DNA of 64,000 nt from the NCBI GenBank assembly GCA_027315185.1, contig DAHUYO010000008.1, positions 1 to 64,000 on the forward strand, in the 5' to 3' direction. Below the pieces are notes generated by a model. That model saw only the letters and a program-made list of their open reading frames with translations. It made no database searches and was not told the DNA's origin. The stretch comes from Acidobacteriota bacterium (GTDB lineage: Bacteria; Acidobacteriota; Terriglobia; Terriglobales; SCQP01). Below are positions 5,628-63,581 of this stretch, one piece after another. The translations under genes and the position numbers were made by a program. Position 1 is the first letter of the stretch; every line of letters begins with the position of its first letter.

Positions 5628-6619
5628 GCTCGGCGCTGCGACGCCTGCTGCACGGCGCACTGGTGCTGGCCGCGGTGTCGGTGCTGGTCTTCCTGCTGAT
5701 GCAGTTGGCGCCGGGCAGCTACTACGCGCGCATGCGGCTCAATCCGCAGTTGTCGCCCCGCACCGTGGCCGCGCTGGAGGCGGCCCAAGGCATGCGGGCG
5801 CCGCTGCCGGTGCGGTATTGGCGCTGGCTGCGCTCCGTCGCGGCTGGCCGGTGGGGCTACTCCTTTGCCTACAACGCGCCGGTTTGGCCGCTGGTTCGGA
5901 CGCGCGTGGCCCATACGTTGTGGCTGACGCTGACCGCCCTGCTCCTCGCCTGGATGGTGGCGCTGCCGCTGGGCATGTGGTCCGCCTGGCGGCGCGGCCA
6001 TTGGGACAGCCGCGCCATCGCCGGCGGGGCCAGCCTGCTATTGGCGCTGCCGGACGTGGTGCTGGCGCTGGCTCTGTTGGCGCTGGCCCTCCGCACGGGA
6101 TGGTTTCCCGTGGGCGGCATGCATACGCTCGGGTCCCGGCACTGGGACCGCTGGGCGCAATTGCGCGACTTCGCGTGGCATCTCTGCCTGCCAGTGACGG
6201 TGCTGGTGGCGGGCATGCTGCCGACCTTGGTGCGCCATGTGCGGGCGGCTATGGCCGAAGCGCTGGACGCGCCGTACATCGCCGCCGCCCGCGGCCACGG
6301 CATCGGCGAATGGCGGCTGGTGTTCGGGCAAGCGCTGCCGGTCGCCGCCAATCCCATGCTCTCGCTGTTGGGCCTGTCTTTCGGCGCCCTGCTCAGCGGC
6401 TCGCTGGTGGTGGAGGTCATACTCGGCTGGCCCGGCCTCGGTCCGCTGCTGTGGCGAGCCATCCTGGACCGCGACCCCTATGTCGTGGTCGCCGCCGTGA
6501 TGCTGTCGGCGGCGCTGCTGGTGGGCGGCAATATGCTGGCGGATTTGGGATTGGCCTGGACCGATCCCCGGCTTGCAACGCGCGGCGCTGCCGCGGCTAG
6601 CCGGAGCGAGGCGCCGTGA
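5612..6619 (+). CDS. dppB: Dipeptide ABC transporter permease, DppB type
   Basis: 335 residues. It forms half of the inner-membrane channel for peptide import. An N-terminal helix (about 14-34, ending FLLMQLAPGS) is followed by a periplasmic region and five more helices. The cytoplasmic EAA loop that docks on the ATPase is seen at 216-243 (EALDAPYIAAARGHGIGEWR). The start is a GTG at 5612, inside the end of the ATPase gene. The stop overlaps the start of dppC. Confidence 0.9.
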   Translation: MPGIVSSALRRLLHGALVLAAVSVLVFLLMQLAPGSYYARMRLNPQLSPRTVAALEAAQGMRAPLPVRYWRWLRSVAAGRWGYSFAYNAPVWPLVRTRVAHTLWLTLTALLLAWMVALPLGMWSAWRRGHWDSRAIAGGASLLLALPDVVLALALLALALRTGWFPVGGMHTLGSRHWDRWAQLRDFAWHLCLPVTVLVAGMLPTLVRHVRAAMAEALDAPYIAAARGHGIGEWRLVFGQALPVAANPMLSLLGLSFGALLSGSLVVEVILGWPGLGPLLWRAILDRDPYVVVAAVMLSAALLVGGNMLADLGLAWTDPRLATRGAAAASRSEAP

Positions 6620-7605
6620 ATTCCGCCCCAACCATGCCGCGGCGGGGCTGGCGCTGGCCGTTGGCGGCGCTCATCGCCTTCCATGTCTTGGTTCTCGGGG
6701 CGGGATTTTTCGCCCCCTATGCGCCGGCGCGCCAGTTCCGCCGGTTTCCCTTCGCGCCCCCGATGCGATTGCATTGGTGGGGCCCCCGCGGTCATTTCCA
6801 TTGGCGGCCCTTCGTTTATCCCTGGCGGCCCTTGGCCGAGCGCTATGGTCCACCGCGGTACCGGCTGGACGCATCCCATCCCCTGCCGCTGCATTTTTTC
6901 CGCCATGGCCATTTGTTCGCCGTCCCCGGCCGCGGGGTGTTTCTGTTGGGCACCGACGCCTTGGGCCGCGATGAACTCTCGCGCCTGCTCTATGGCGGCC
7001 GGCTGTCGCTGCTCGCCGGCTTGCTGGGCGCCGGCTTGGCGCTCAGCCTGGGACTGGTCTTGGGCGGCGCCGCCGGGTTCATGGGGGGCTGGACGGACGC
7101 CCTGGTGATGCGGGGCGCGGAACTGTTCCTGGCCCTGCCGTGGATTTATTTGCTCTTCGCCGCGCGCGCCTTCTTGCCCTTGTCGGTCAGCGGGGCTGCG
7201 GCGTTCTTGATGCTGGTGGCGATCCTGGGCCTAACCGGCTGGGGTCGGCCGGCGCGGCTGATTCGCGGGGTGGCGCTAGCCGCCCGCGAACGCGACTACG
7301 TGCGCTCGGCCCGTGGCTTCGGCGGCTCCCGCTGGTATGTGCTGCGGCGCCACATCTGGCCGGAAACCTATTCGGTCGCCCTGACCCAGGCGGCGCTGCT
7401 GGCGCCGCAGTTCATTTTGGCCGAGGTGGCTTTGGGGTTTTTGGGGCTGGGCGCGGCGCCCCCCACCGCCAGTTGGGGCGCGATGCTGGCGGGCCTGCTG
7501 AAGCTCTATGTGCTGGAATCCTACGCCTGGCTCTTTGCGCCGGCCGTGGCGTTGGTCGTGGTCGTTCTGCTCTACGATTGGCTGGCGACCAGCCTCGCCG
7601 CTTAG
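6616..7605 (+). CDS. dppC: Dipeptide ABC transporter permease, DppC type
   Basis: 329 residues. It is the second channel subunit of the peptide importer. The family hallmark LGTDALGRDELSRLLYGGRL is at 111-130 and the EAA loop at about 222-250 (ARERDYVRSARGFGGSRWYV). The region between helix 1 and that hallmark (residues 40-105) is longer than usual and rich in Pro, His and Trp, a periplasmic insertion of unknown role. It starts in the four-base ATGA-type overlap with dppB and ends in a four-base convergent overlap with sdhB. Confidence 0.9.
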   Translation: MNSAPTMPRRGWRWPLAALIAFHVLVLGAGFFAPYAPARQFRRFPFAPPMRLHWWGPRGHFHWRPFVYPWRPLAERYGPPRYRLDASHPLPLHFFRHGHLFAVPGRGVFLLGTDALGRDELSRLLYGGRLSLLAGLLGAGLALSLGLVLGGAAGFMGGWTDALVMRGAELFLALPWIYLLFAARAFLPLSVSGAAAFLMLVAILGLTGWGRPARLIRGVALAARERDYVRSARGFGGSRWYVLRRHIWPETYSVALTQAALLAPQFILAEVALGFLGLGAAPPTASWGAMLAGLLKLYVLESYAWLFAPAVALVVVVLLYDWLATSLAA

Positions 7606-8351
7606 CGCCCCAGCGCCTTGCCCCAAAGATGGCCGACCATCTGCCGGTTCACCGCCGCGATCGAGTCGGTTAGGGGGATGTCCTTCGGGCAGGCCTTGAC
7701 GCAGTTTTCCGCGTAGCCGCATTCTTGAATGCCGCCGGGTCCGGTCAGCGCGTCCAGGCGGGCGGCGCGGTGCATCTTGCCGGTGGGATGGAGGTTGAAC
7801 AGCCGCACCTGGTTGATCACCGCCGCCCCCACGTAGTCGGTCCGGGTGTTGTATTGCGGGCAAACCTCCAGGCAGTTGCCGCAGGAAATGCACCGCGACA
7901 ACGGATAGGCTTGCTCCTGGTCCTGCGGCGACTGCCGCGGCCCGGAGCCGAGCGCATAGGTCCCGTCAATCGGCACCCAGGCCTTGACGCGGCGCAGGTC
8001 GTTGAACAGCTTGGAGCGGTCCACCTGAAGGTCGCGAATCATCGGAAAGCGGTGCAGCGGCTCCAAGCTGATCGGCTGTTCCAGCCGGTCCACCAGCGCG
8101 GTACAGGCCTGCCGCGCCCGCCCGTTGATGACCATGGCGCAGGCGCCGCAGACCTCCTCCAGGCAGTTGGCCTCGTAGGCGATGGTGCTGGTGGGGCGCC
8201 CGTCGCGGGTCACCGGGTTTTCGGCGATGTCGCGCAGGGCGACGATCACGTTCATGTGCGGGCGGTAGGGAATCTCGAACTCTTCCCAAACCGGCGGCGC
8301 TTGCGGGCCGGCTTGGCGCTTGATGCGCAGGCGGACGGTGTTGGCGGGCAT
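7602..8351 (-). CDS. sdhB: Succinate dehydrogenase / fumarate reductase iron-sulfur subunit
   Basis: 249 residues. It passes electrons from the SdhA flavin to the membrane subunit through three clusters. Ligands for the [2Fe-2S] cluster are Cys63, 68, 71 and 83. The [4Fe-4S] motif CISCGNCLEVCP supplies Cys154, 157, 160 and 164. The third cluster uses Cys211, 217 and 221 (CGYAENCVKACP). It is the last gene of a leftward sdhCAB operon and starts eight bases after sdhA ends. Confidence 0.95.
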   Translation of the reverse strand: MPANTVRLRIKRQAGPQAPPVWEEFEIPYRPHMNVIVALRDIAENPVTRDGRPTSTIAYEANCLEEVCGACAMVINGRARQACTALVDRLEQPISLEPLHRFPMIRDLQVDRSKLFNDLRRVKAWVPIDGTYALGSGPRQSPQDQEQAYPLSRCISCGNCLEVCPQYNTRTDYVGAAVINQVRLFNLHPTGKMHRAARLDALTGPGGIQECGYAENCVKACPKDIPLTDSIAAVNRQMVGHLWGKALGR

Positions 8352-58643: not shown

Positions 58644-59579
58644 ATGACAACGAGTAACGTGCCAGGCCGCGTGCCGCTGCGCCGCAGCGCGAATCTTTCG
58701 CGGCGTTTCGCCGCGGGCCTGGTTCTCGTCGTGCTGGCGGCCGGCGGCGCCGCCGCGCAGACCATACCGTCCGGAATTGCGGCCATGGGTACGCTGCCGC
58801 GCCCGGTGCCGGGCTTCACGCCCGCTGCATCACCGCTTCCGAGTCCGGCCCCGACGCTAGCGGCGGCCTTGCCACCGGCGGCAACGGCAACAGCCGCCTC
58901 CTCCGCTCCGGATTCCCTGGCTCCCGCCGCGGCTGCGCACGCCGCGGCGGCGCCCGGCGCATCCCACCACGCCCGCCTGATCACCGCCGACGATCTCGCC
59001 CGGATTGGCATGGTTCCGGCGCAGCAACAGCAGAAGGCGCAGAAGAAGCAGCAGTCCGCCGGTCCGCCCCAGCCGACCTTGCAGCAGCTTGGCATCACTC
59101 CGCAGATGACCCAGGCCAATGTCAAGGCTCAGCAACGCCTCAACCGCCGGCAATGGATGTTGCGCTGGCATCAGCGCCTGGGTCTGATCACCGGGGGCGC
59201 CATGTTCGCTACGTTTTTCCTGGGCCACAGCGCCGGCCCGCACGGCACGCCCACCGGGCGCAATATCCACGTCGCACTCGGCACGGCCACCACGGCGCTC
59301 TATTTCACCACCGCCTATATGGCCCTGGAAGCGCCGAAGATTCCCGGCACCAAACCCACCGGCGCGGTCAAGCTGCACGAAATTCTGGCTTGGATTCATT
59401 TTCCCGGCATGATCCTCACGCCCATCCTGGGCTACATGGCCTACCATCAGGAACAGTTGGGCCAGCGCCCGCATGGCATCGCCAAGCTCCACGGGCTGGT
59501 CGCCACCGTCACCTTCCTGGCCTTCGCAACCTCCATCGTCGCTGTCTCCTGGCCGATCCATCTGCCGTTTCACCTTTAA
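58644..59579 (+). CDS. Cytochrome b561-like membrane protein with a long periplasmic N-terminus
   Basis: 311 residues. A signal peptide (GLVLVVLAAGGAAAQ) is followed by ~110 residues rich in Pro and Ala and a Gln/Lys stretch. Four helices follow from residue ~170: WMLRWHQRLGLITGGAMFAT, GRNIHVALGTATTALYFTTA, KLHEILAWIHFPGMILTPIL and GIAKLHGLVATVTFLAF. His residues at their ends (WHQ, NIH, KLHE, IHF, KLHG) suit two haem b groups. It is followed by a YceI gene, as in the E. coli yceJ-yceI operon. It may carry electrons across or along the membrane. Confidence 0.78.
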   Translation: MTTSNVPGRVPLRRSANLSRRFAAGLVLVVLAAGGAAAQTIPSGIAAMGTLPRPVPGFTPAASPLPSPAPTLAAALPPAATATAASSAPDSLAPAAAAHAAAAPGASHHARLITADDLARIGMVPAQQQQKAQKKQQSAGPPQPTLQQLGITPQMTQANVKAQQRLNRRQWMLRWHQRLGLITGGAMFATFFLGHSAGPHGTPTGRNIHVALGTATTALYFTTAYMALEAPKIPGTKPTGAVKLHEILAWIHFPGMILTPILGYMAYHQEQLGQRPHGIAKLHGLVATVTFLAFATSIVAVSWPIHLPFHL

Positions 59580-59608
59580 CCCACCGCCCGCGCTGGAGTT
59601 CTTTTCTT

Positions 59609-60181
59609 ATGTTTCGATCCCTCGCCAGGACATCCGCCGCCACCGCGGCAGCCTTTGCACTTCCCGCGCTGCTCGGCGCCGCCGCCAAGCCCGTGGCCAG
59701 CCATTGGGTGCTGCAAAGCTCGGCGCTTACCTATCACGTCACCCATCCGCTTCATAAGGTAAACGGCGTCAGCCATGCGGCCCGCGGCATGGGCGTCTGC
59801 GCCGATGGGGTGTGCCGCTTTCTCATCGCCGATCAGGTCAACACCTTTTCTACTGGCGACAGCGCTCGCGACATTCATATGCAGCAGGTGGTGCATGCCG
59901 CGCTGTACCCGCTGATCACCGTGCGCACCACCGTGCCGCAAGCCGATCTGACGGCAAGCCAGATCCAGGCCACCCTGGTGGTGCATTTTGCCGGCCAGAA
60001 GGTGACGTTCCCCCATCTCACCTTCGCTCTCCGCCAGCAGAATGGCGACATCCGCCTTGCCGGCACCATTCCGGCGACAGTGCGGGAATTCAAGATCAAG
60101 CCGCCGCAACTGTTGTTCATGCCCATCAATAACCAGATCCCCATCACCGTCGTGATGCTTTGGGCGCCGGCAAAATCTTAG
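59609..60181 (+). CDS. yceI: YceI-family secreted protein
   Basis: 190 residues from the ATG at 59609, preceded by GGAG. A signal peptide (AAFALPALLGAAAK) and a lipocalin-like beta barrel: VLQSSALTYHVTHPLHKVNG, then FLIADQVNTFSTGDSARDIH (the family hallmark usually has F-S-D-N-R-D-x-H) and HFAGQKVTFPHLTFALRQQN. YceI proteins bind polyisoprenoid lipids in the periplasm. The pairing with a cytochrome b561 gene suggests an isoprenoid quinone-like ligand. Unusual feature: two Cys (GVCADGVCRF) that could form a disulfide. Confidence 0.83.
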   Translation: MFRSLARTSAATAAAFALPALLGAAAKPVASHWVLQSSALTYHVTHPLHKVNGVSHAARGMGVCADGVCRFLIADQVNTFSTGDSARDIHMQQVVHAALYPLITVRTTVPQADLTASQIQATLVVHFAGQKVTFPHLTFALRQQNGDIRLAGTIPATVREFKIKPPQLLFMPINNQIPITVVMLWAPAKS

Positions 60182-60640: not shown

Positions 60641-60790
60641 ATGAAAGAAACTACCATGCACGGTCTCGACAAGCTGCCCCTGGCGGCAGGCGTGCTGGTT
60701 GCACTGTTGCTGCTTCCCTGGGTGGCAAAACGACCGCATTCGGAACGGCGCCGCCGTTTTTGGCGTTGGCGCCGTCGGCGCAGATGGTAG
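60641..60790 (+). CDS. Tiny single-helix membrane protein with an Arg/Trp-rich tail
   Basis: 49 residues: a short N-terminus (MKETTMHGLDKL), one hydrophobic helix (PLAAGVLVALLLLPWVA), then KRPHSERRRRFWRWRRRRRW. The positive-inside rule puts the tail in the cytoplasm. A second ATG at 60656 has a better ribosome binding site (AAAGAA) and would give 44 residues. Small Arg/Trp-rich membrane proteins can act as regulators or toxins, but I cannot assign one. It lies upstream of the M1-type gene. Confidence 0.5.
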   Translation: MKETTMHGLDKLPLAAGVLVALLLLPWVAKRPHSERRRRFWRWRRRRRW

Positions 60791-60998: not shown

Positions 60999-63581
60999 AT
61001 GCCGGCGCTCGCCCTCGCCGCGTTAGTCTCTCAGGCCGCCCTGGCCGTCGTTCTCGCCGCGGCGCCGGTTCCGCGGCAGCCCTCGCGTGCAGCGTCTCGC
61101 GGCGCACGCCTGCACGCGGCGTCCGCCGTGGACGCAGCGGACCGCCCGCCTCACCGCACCTATCACGTCGTCAAGTACGTGCTTGCGCTCCACTTTGATC
61201 AATCCAAAGGTGAGGTCTTTGGCAACGAAATCATCACCCTCCAGCCCCTGCATTCCGGCTTTCGCCGCTTTTATCTGGATTCCACGGGACTGACGATCAC
61301 CCGCGTCCGCCTGGTGACCGCTGGCGCGCCCTCCCGCCGCCTGGGCCATTTCCTCCGCCACTCCCGCTTGTGGATCACCCTAAAGCGCTCCTACCCGGCT
61401 GGCGTTCCCATCACGGTCCGCATCCTCTACCACGGCTTTCCCCGCACCGGATTATTCTTCGTCAACCCCACACGCCACTATCCCCACTGGCCGCGCGAGG
61501 TCTACTCCCAGGGCGAGCCGGAGTTGAATCATTTTTGGTTTCCCTGCTGGGATTATCCCAACGACATGTCGGCGAGCGAGACCATCACGACCGTGCCCGC
61601 GGGAGAAATCGTGGTTTCCAACGGCCGATTGGTCCGCGTCACCCACGAAGCGGGCCTGACGACCTATGACTGGAAGGAGTCCGTTCCGCACAGCTCGTAC
61701 CTCATCTCCATTGCCGTTGGGCCTTGGCGCCGCGTCGTGGAGCCGGACCGTCGGCTCGCGGTGGACGATTATGTTCCCCGCGGCGTTTCCGCCGCCACCG
61801 CCCATCGCTCCTTTCACCTCACTCCGGACATGATTGGCTTTTTCTCCCGGGCCACCGGCGTGCCCTATCCCTACGAGAAATACGCTCAAACCACCGTCCA
61901 CAATTTCATCTTTGGTGGCCAGGAAAACGTCAGCGCCACCACGCTGACTGATGCGACCTTGCATGGGACCCGTGCCGATCTCGATTTTCCCAGCACTGCG
62001 CTGGTGGCCCACGAACTCGGCCAGCAGTGGTTTGGCGACTACGTCCAGGGCCGCGATTGGGCGGATATCTGGCTCAACGAAGGCTTCGCCACCTACCTGC
62101 AAGCCCTCTACACCCAATACCACTCGGGTTTTGACGCCTACCGGCTCGAAATCTACCGCGACCAAAGAGCCGCCCAGCGGGAGGAACGAACGACGCCGCG
62201 TCCGTTGGTGTTCCGGCGTTTTCGCGATCCCTTGGACATGTTCGACGCCATCACCCACCAGAAGGGCGCCGCGGTGCTGGACATGCTTCGTTATGTCGTG
62301 GACGGGCCCCGTGCCATCCAGCAGCCCGCTTCGCAGCGCGAGCCGCTATTCCGTGCCCTGCGCGCTTATCTGCTTACCCATCGCGCCCGCGCGGTTGGCA
62401 CCCCGGCCCTGGTTCATGCCGTCGAAGCCGCAACCGGCCGGCGCCTCGGATGGTTTTTTCACCAGTGGGTATATCAGCGGGGCGTGCCGGCGTATCGCGT
62501 CTCCACGCGCTACGATTCCGCCCGCCGCGTGGAACGCGTGGCGATCCGCCAGGTGCAGCCCGCGAACGCCGCGCCTCCGGTGTTCGTCATGCCCATCCAA
62601 CTCGCTTTCTATGGAGGCCGCTGGCGGCGAGTGGTCCAGGTGTGGGATGACCGGCGCTCCGAGGTATTCCATGTGCGTCTCAACTTCCAGCCGCAATGGG
62701 TGGATTTCGATCCGCACGACTTCATTGACAAGCGCTTGCAATTTCACCCTACGGTTGCCGCGCTCATCGCCGCTGCCGAGCGCGATCCGGCGATGATGAG
62801 CCGCCTTTGGGCGGTCCGGCAGCTCGGCCGCCTCCCGCGGGCGCAAGGGCGTACCAACCGGGTGGTCCGCGCCCTCGTGCGCGTACTCCGCACCGATTCC
62901 TTTTATGCCGTCCGGGCCGCCGCGGCAGCCGGTCTCGGTCGAACCCGCCTCGCAACGGCCCGGCGCGCGTTGCTCGCCGCTTTGCGGCAGTCCGACAGTC
63001 GCGTGCGGGCTGCCGCCGTCGCCTCGCTGGCCGCATCCGCGCGCCGCCCGACGGTCTTCCGCGCCCTGCGCCACGCTCTGCGCCATGATTCCAGTGAGCG
63101 GGTCGAGGCAGCGGCGGCGCGGGCGATCGGGTCGTCCGGTGGCGGCCGGGCCTTCGCCTGCTTGCGCGCCGAGGCCGCCCAGCCGCTCGCGGTGCATGTG
63201 ATGCCATCTGTGTTGGCGGGCTTGGCCGCGACCGGCAATCCCCGCGCCGCGGGGGTGCTCTTGGCTGCCGCGGCGCCCGGGCGGCCCGAGCCGATTCGCC
63301 TTGCCGCCCTGGGAAGTCTTCCCCGCCTACAGGCAGTCTGGCCCGAGGCACTGCGTCCCGCACTCATCCGCTCCGTCCGGGAGGCGCTGCATGACCCGTA
63401 TTTGCTGACCCAGTTGGAGGGCGGACAAGTCGCCGGCGCGTTTGGCTTGCGGCAATTTCGCTCCCTCATCCGCGGCGATTTGCATGCCCCGCTTCCGTTC
63501 CAGCGCCGCCTCGCGCGATCAGTCCTGCGTCAACTGGGCGGGATGGCTTACCACCATGCGCTCGCGCCTGCGGCGCATTGA
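60999..63581 (+). CDS. M1 aminopeptidase-like protein with HEAT repeats, catalytic residues altered
   Basis: 860 residues from the ATG at 60999, giving a signal-like hydrophobic start (ALAALVSQAALAVVLAAAP); an ATG at 60861 is possible. The M1 fold is complete: an N-terminal saddle domain (~50-250), substrate loop GGQEN (306-310) in place of GAMEN, zinc region HELGQQWFGD (His338-Glu339-Leu-Gly-Gln342) and NEGFATY with Glu361. Two key positions are changed: the second zinc His is Gln342, and the tyrosine of the Y-x-K-G motif is His420 (THQKG). HEAT-like helical repeats fill ~590-845 (AVRAAAAAGLGRTRLATARR). It should be periplasmic, perhaps a binding pseudopeptidase. Confidence 0.88.
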   Translation: MPALALAALVSQAALAVVLAAAPVPRQPSRAASRGARLHAASAVDAADRPPHRTYHVVKYVLALHFDQSKGEVFGNEIITLQPLHSGFRRFYLDSTGLTITRVRLVTAGAPSRRLGHFLRHSRLWITLKRSYPAGVPITVRILYHGFPRTGLFFVNPTRHYPHWPREVYSQGEPELNHFWFPCWDYPNDMSASETITTVPAGEIVVSNGRLVRVTHEAGLTTYDWKESVPHSSYLISIAVGPWRRVVEPDRRLAVDDYVPRGVSAATAHRSFHLTPDMIGFFSRATGVPYPYEKYAQTTVHNFIFGGQENVSATTLTDATLHGTRADLDFPSTALVAHELGQQWFGDYVQGRDWADIWLNEGFATYLQALYTQYHSGFDAYRLEIYRDQRAAQREERTTPRPLVFRRFRDPLDMFDAITHQKGAAVLDMLRYVVDGPRAIQQPASQREPLFRALRAYLLTHRARAVGTPALVHAVEAATGRRLGWFFHQWVYQRGVPAYRVSTRYDSARRVERVAIRQVQPANAAPPVFVMPIQLAFYGGRWRRVVQVWDDRRSEVFHVRLNFQPQWVDFDPHDFIDKRLQFHPTVAALIAAAERDPAMMSRLWAVRQLGRLPRAQGRTNRVVRALVRVLRTDSFYAVRAAAAAGLGRTRLATARRALLAALRQSDSRVRAAAVASLAASARRPTVFRALRHALRHDSSERVEAAAARAIGSSGGGRAFACLRAEAAQPLAVHVMPSVLAGLAATGNPRAAGVLLAAAAPGRPEPIRLAALGSLPRLQAVWPEALRPALIRSVREALHDPYLLTQLEGGQVAGAFGLRQFRSLIRGDLHAPLPFQRRLARSVLRQLGGMAYHHALAPAAH

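Follow-up and report, generated by a model that had tools for sequence, protein, structure and literature searches.

An exported M1-fold protein of Acidobacteriota whose active site was rebuilt once and may still be a working metal site

This report concerns a gene at positions 60999-63581 (forward strand) of a 64,000-nucleotide stretch of DNA from an Acidobacteriota bacterium (GenBank assembly GCA_027315185.1, contig DAHUYO010000008.1, positions 1 to 64,000; hereafter the window), whose predicted product has the fold of M1 peptidases but carries Gln342 in place of a zinc-binding His and His420 in place of the catalytic Tyr. On the strength of sequence comparison and structure prediction we read it as an exported M1-fold protein of soil-type Acidobacteria, with an active site that underwent a single rebuilding and has since been maintained by selection, and, with a probability of roughly 0.48, as one that would act as a metal-dependent exopeptidase with a Gln ligand and a His oxyanion stabiliser. 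Such a rewired working exopeptidase is slightly favoured over a binding pseudopeptidase. HExxH is the textbook signature for calling metallopeptidases active or dead, and a clade that swapped the zinc His and the Tyr once, while the rest of the pocket stayed fully constrained, offers a clean natural test of this rule (matched comparison is made straightforward by canonical sisters that occur in the same bacterial family and are about 50% identical). If these proteins are active, annotation rules for pseudopeptidases would need revising; if they are inactive, they would represent an M1 pseudopeptidase that bacteria export and whose origin can be traced.

Translation bears out both substitutions that an initial annotation of the window had reported. 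VAHELGQQWFGDYVQGRDWADIWLNEGFATY, obtained by translating 60999-63581, holds His338, Glu339, Gln342, Gln343 and Glu361, the Gln342 codon being CAG (62022-62024) at the position of the second zinc His in M1, and DAITHQKGAAVLDMLR carries His420 (codon CAC, 62256-62258) at the position of the Tyr in the M1 motif Y-x-K-G. The motif context reads HELGQQWFGD...WLNEGFA; active M1 aminopeptidases have HExxH-x18-E and the catalytic Tyr, where every member of the clade described below has Gln342, within HELGQ-x18-E in the window protein, and His420. Pfam matches are to Peptidase_M1 (E=4e-32; 111.9 bits against a curated cut-off of 27.7), Peptidase_M1_N (E=1e-11, likewise above cut-off) and HEAT_2 (E=2e-15), the last in keeping with the C-terminal HEAT repeats described in the initial annotation. 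The reading frame extends upstream without a stop to a TTG at 60699, and the ATG at 60999 opens a signal-peptide-like stretch, which every clade member and canonical sister examined also has. The features of the gene, all on the + strand, are as follows.

60999..63581, +: exported protein of 860 amino acids, M1 fold with HEAT repeats at the C-terminal end, HELGQ/THxKG clade (translation, Pfam, AlphaFold2 [AF2] model)
60999..61070, +: signal-peptide-like N-terminus, residues 1-24 (hydrophobic stretch; exact start codon uncertain)
61173..61703, +: Peptidase_M1 N-terminal domain, residues 59-235 (Pfam)
61566..61568, +: Met190, fixed in the clade, where canonical relatives have Lys, Arg or Gln (alignment)
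61812..62468, +: Peptidase_M1 catalytic domain, residues 272-490 (Pfam)
61914..61928, +: GGQEN, residues 306-310, corresponding to GAMEN (Glu309 invariant; Gln308 in 13/14 members, Met elsewhere)
62010..62039, +: HELGQQWFGD, residues 338-347 (His338 and Glu339 retained; Gly341 and Gln342 fixed in the clade; His, Gln or Glu at 343)
62046..62051, +: Gln350-Gly351, fixed in the clade, where canonical relatives have Thr-Thr, Thr-Glu or Thr-Cys (alignment)
62079..62081, +: Glu361, third zinc ligand, invariant (alignment)
62253..62267, +: THQKG, residues 419-423 (His420 clade-fixed, replacing the catalytic Tyr; Lys422 invariant)
62757..63578, +: C-terminal part with HEAT repeats, residues 587-860 (Pfam, AF2 model)

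The substrate loop, initially described as intact, is so in its Glu309 but not in its Met: GAMEN reads GGQEN, with Gln at 308. Across the clade this GxMEN exopeptidase loop keeps its Glu, with Met replaced by Gln in 13/14 members and Asn by Asp in two, whereas canonical sisters read GGMEN or GGLEN.

Members of the clade were sought in the bacterial family (14 genomes), in 84,980 species genomes and, by DNA pattern, in the order (397 genomes, 10 of which contain HELGQ-x-WFGD). Gln342 and His420 occur together in 15 species-level genomes, mainly Acidobacteriota, and the frame is intact in 14. These include two congeners at 93-94% identity, two members that belong to a second genus of the family and are about 60% identical, and five from a different family of the order, the remaining ones being labelled Acidobacteria, Terriglobales, Sulfotelmatobacter, Gemmatimonadota and Proteobacteria (the last two labels unconfirmed); pairwise identity among the intact members is 50-95%. 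Since a phylum-wide sample of 396 genomes yielded no member beyond the window's own genome, the clade is narrow. No described M1 clade with HExxQ or a Tyr-to-His change was found in the open-access literature searched. Both swaps are present in 14/14 intact members, while His and Tyr are found in all 19 canonical comparison sequences and, in a 99-sequence alignment, in every canonical M1 sequence wherever the alignment covers those sites.

That the swaps reflect a point mutation, a mistake in sequencing or assembly, or gene decay has a negligible probability. The 15th copy (L126 in genome G716, about 6447-7725) is split over several frames, as a pseudogene or by frameshift errors in the assembly, and is the one observation pointing that way, although it still reads HELGQH and THEKG. 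Mutation or read error was ruled out by identical residues in 14 further species from several distinct assemblies, with synonymous codon changes at the variant sites among clade members, and decay, the G716 copy excepted, by open frames and low ratios of non-synonymous to synonymous substitution (dN/dS). Orthologues with a normal HExxH and Tyr, which the initial annotation had equated with a point mutation or read error, were not the outcome; at least 14 further species carry identical swaps, so the window protein belongs to a small, conserved group whose members share a rebuilt active site.

How this active site arose can be traced. The variants are monophyletic, with a support of 1.0 in both trees. 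A normal HELAH and Tyr are found in all of their nearest M1 relatives, several of which come from the same bacterial family. Parsimony requires one change each at 341, 342, 350 and 420, all on the stem branch. By this reconstruction, both swaps arose once, on the stem, along with Gly341, Gln350, Gly351, Met190 and Gln308, so the initial view of two independent losses gives way to a single branch bearing both changes and about five others in the pocket. The residues that the clade has fixed and that canonical sequences lack entirely or almost entirely are Met190, Ala285, Gln308 (13/14), Val311, Gly341, Gln342, Gln350, Gly351, Asp410, Leu412, His420, Pro443, Gln446, Phe575 and Ala588. Clade-specific residues are enriched in the three catalytic motifs (7/15 versus 46/313 clade-conserved shared columns; Fisher p=0.004, to be taken as a guide because columns are not independent). 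In the family, 5/14 genomes have the variant, 6/14 its canonical sister and none both (several genomes are incomplete), a pattern that points to replacement in a single orthologous line or to differential loss.

Structure prediction agrees with the M1 assignment. The AF2 model of the window protein (pLDDT 93, pTM 0.92) has IRAP and ERAP1 as its best matches by E-value in the PDB (probability 1.00), and TAF2 (7edx_B) has the highest query-normalised TM-score, 0.80, among the matches listed. In the model of the canonical relative L070 (pLDDT 94.9) the HExxH helix stops one residue before the second His, as it stops one before Gln342 in the window model, and the helix carrying the Tyr or the His starts three residues upstream of that residue in both. 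The predicted backbone is thus the same as in the canonical relative, and from these equivalent helix ends and starts Gln342 and His420 are predicted to occupy the former places of His and Tyr.

Position 343 raises another possibility, namely that in HELGQH members His343 serves as second ligand via a helix bulge, in a shifted HExxxH motif like that of DPP III, the window member being a later degenerate form. This residue is His in 8 of the 14 intact members, Gln in 4 and Glu in 2. Parsimony places His, i.e. HELGQH, at the clade root, followed by two changes to Gln and one to Glu, and the window member (Gln343) has therefore lost that His too; in DPP III itself both His of HELLGH are on zinc (PMC3268031). 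We consider such a shift very unlikely. A His at 343 is not conserved, having been replaced by Gln or Glu on at least three occasions while the pocket otherwise stayed as it was; some canonical M1 proteins, such as L028, which reads HELAHHWFGD, have His at both 342 and 343, so His343 needs no ligand role; and the equivalent helix ends mean that no shift is predicted, at least in the window member, which is not itself HELGQH.

Other parts of the pocket did not change. His338, Glu339 (the general base), Glu361 (the third ligand, intact as the initial annotation had it), Glu309 (the N-terminus anchor) and Lys422 are invariant in the clade and in canonical sequences. Variant pairs have a dN/dS of 0.04-0.08 in the pocket (residues 300-430) and of 0.09-0.34 in the HEAT part; for canonical pairs the values are 0.02-0.11 and 0.19-0.42, respectively (Nei-Gojobori estimates, saturated for the most distant pairs). 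As far as these estimates go, pocket constraint in the variant clade is not relaxed relative to canonical relatives. With His338, Glu339, Glu361 and Glu309 invariant and the pocket constrained much as in canonical enzymes, a rewired site fits at least as well as a dead one. Of the initial proposal of a binding pseudoenzyme rather than a decaying gene, the second half stands, the frame being kept by selection, and the first is a plausible rival.

Judging from these residues and the model, the protein has most likely kept the ability to bind a divalent metal and to cleave either N-terminal residues or some related small substrate. His338 and Glu361 would stay metal ligands, the amide oxygen of Gln342 would fill the ligand position of the second His, and its NH2 would take a hydrogen bond to the carbonyl of Gly346. 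Glu339 would activate water, Glu309 would anchor the substrate N-terminus and His420 would stand in for Tyr as oxyanion stabiliser, the part played by His231 in thermolysin. A role for His420 as replacement metal ligand was judged less likely than this one, since no change is predicted in the backbone and a His does not extend as far as a Tyr. The Met308 to Gln change and the VQG turn may alter the S1 side and hence specificity, and a neutral, weaker Gln ligand could mean looser zinc binding or a different metal. In LTA4H, Table 1 of PMC3268031 lists a hydrogen bond from the carbonyl of Gly303 to the second zinc His (His299), and the counterpart of this Gly in the window protein, Gly346, is invariant. 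Gln has been proposed as active-site zinc ligand in ChiA (PMC7224574), and the same paper cites H. pylori Csd4 and phosphomannose isomerase as precedents. The broader proposal, which we hold more tentatively, is that this may be a natural clade of working M1 metallopeptidases with HExxQ-x18-E and His for Tyr, which would have converged on thermolysin-like oxyanion stabilisation and accepted a neutral second ligand.

Several points weigh against catalysis: (i) mutagenesis of LTA4H and aminopeptidase A indicates that loss of a zinc His or of the Tyr usually abolishes or strongly lowers peptidase activity, (ii) joint loss of a good ligand and the Tyr is also expected of a dead enzyme, (iii) pocket constraint cannot separate catalysis from binding, (iv) a second-shell Glu (368) is likewise Gln in the window's genus and (v) the clade is rare. 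Since such losses usually kill M1 enzymes and the constraint does not discriminate, a pseudopeptidase is nearly as plausible: a protein incapable of hydrolysis, whose Glu309 and cleft would bind peptide N-termini, with the HEAT part serving to present peptides in the periplasm or to sequester them there. Two key catalytic residues are replaced and fixed, the N-terminus-anchoring Glu309 is retained and, as the orthologue check proposed in the initial annotation now shows, Gln and His are conserved in all 14 intact members at low dN/dS, i.e. catalytic residues were lost throughout a set of orthologues under purifying selection, as is expected of pseudopeptidases. The M1 family also has non-catalytic members, such as TAF2 in TFIID, the top match by TM-score among those listed, and the nascent-chain binder Tma108 (PMC11266112). 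However, a pure binder has no obvious need of an invariant Glu339, His338 and Glu361, nor would it readily account for a pocket constraint equal to that of canonical relatives, and the sister branch, whose HEAT architecture is no different, is canonical, which makes the HEAT/TAF2 likeness uninformative on loss of activity. A metal-independent or non-peptidase hydrolase, in which the pocket has been co-opted for other chemistry, is less likely again than the DPP III-like shift. LTA4H combines peptidase and epoxide hydrolase functions in one M1 site, and the several coordinated pocket changes, including S1 (Gln308) and the turn (Gln350-Gly351), would suit such a co-option, but Glu309 and other peptide-binding residues are retained.

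Genomic context separates the two branches. In five genomes (L140-L142, L144, L145) the canonical sister M1 adjoins a cluster encoding three HlyD/MacA-like proteins, a MacB-like permease and an outer-membrane efflux protein, which suggests a peptide export/processing unit. The same exporter is present in variant genomes, but on other contigs, unlinked from the variant M1. No operon partner or neighbour of the variant was found to be conserved across genera, beyond the window's genus; a GNAT protein and an amino-acid permease, considered as partners, lie near a few members but not consistently. Upstream in the window, 59576-60178 has a weak YceI-like match (E=6e-4, below the Pfam cut-off), and the frame before it (58659-59576) is without Pfam match and hydrophobic by eye. 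A second M1 paralogue branch (L022 [G000:C263], L020, L021, L023, L024, L034, L044), also present in the window's own genome, has WLSEG for WLNEG beside the third zinc ligand and keeps HELAHQ and the Tyr.

Among known systems, TAF2, a TFIID subunit, likewise has HEAT repeats after an M1 fold (7edx_B, TM-score 0.80) but is eukaryotic, nuclear and without the peptidase motif; its zinc motif has been lost broadly, whereas H-E...E is invariant in the variant clade. Tma108, a putative M1 aminopeptidase of yeast, binds nascent chains, possibly through its substrate pocket (PMC11266112), and the likeness is again the M1 fold, a zinc ligand and the Tyr being changed in the variant clade. The HExxxH spacing of DPP III (HELLGH) resembles the HELGQH of most clade members, but it belongs to a different family (M49), 343 is not conserved in the clade and no helix bulge is predicted in the window member. 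In thermolysin-type gluzincins, His231 stabilises the oxyanion, the role proposed for His420, but these are endopeptidases with a normal HExxH, unlike the variant clade. H. pylori Csd4, a carboxypeptidase of family M14, and L. pneumophila ChiA (GH18) have folds unrelated to M1. What they share with the proposed site is Gln as an active-site zinc ligand, proposed or shown (Csd4 as cited in PMC7224574). Finally, the canonical M1 proteins of the same branch (L011-L016; Peptidase_M1, M1_N and HEAT_2) have about 47-55% full-length identity, the same architecture and a signal peptide, and have His338, Glu339, Glu361, Glu309 and Lys422 in common with the variant clade, differing from it in HELAHQ, Tyr, GGMEN and VTT versus HELGQ, His, GGQEN and VQG.
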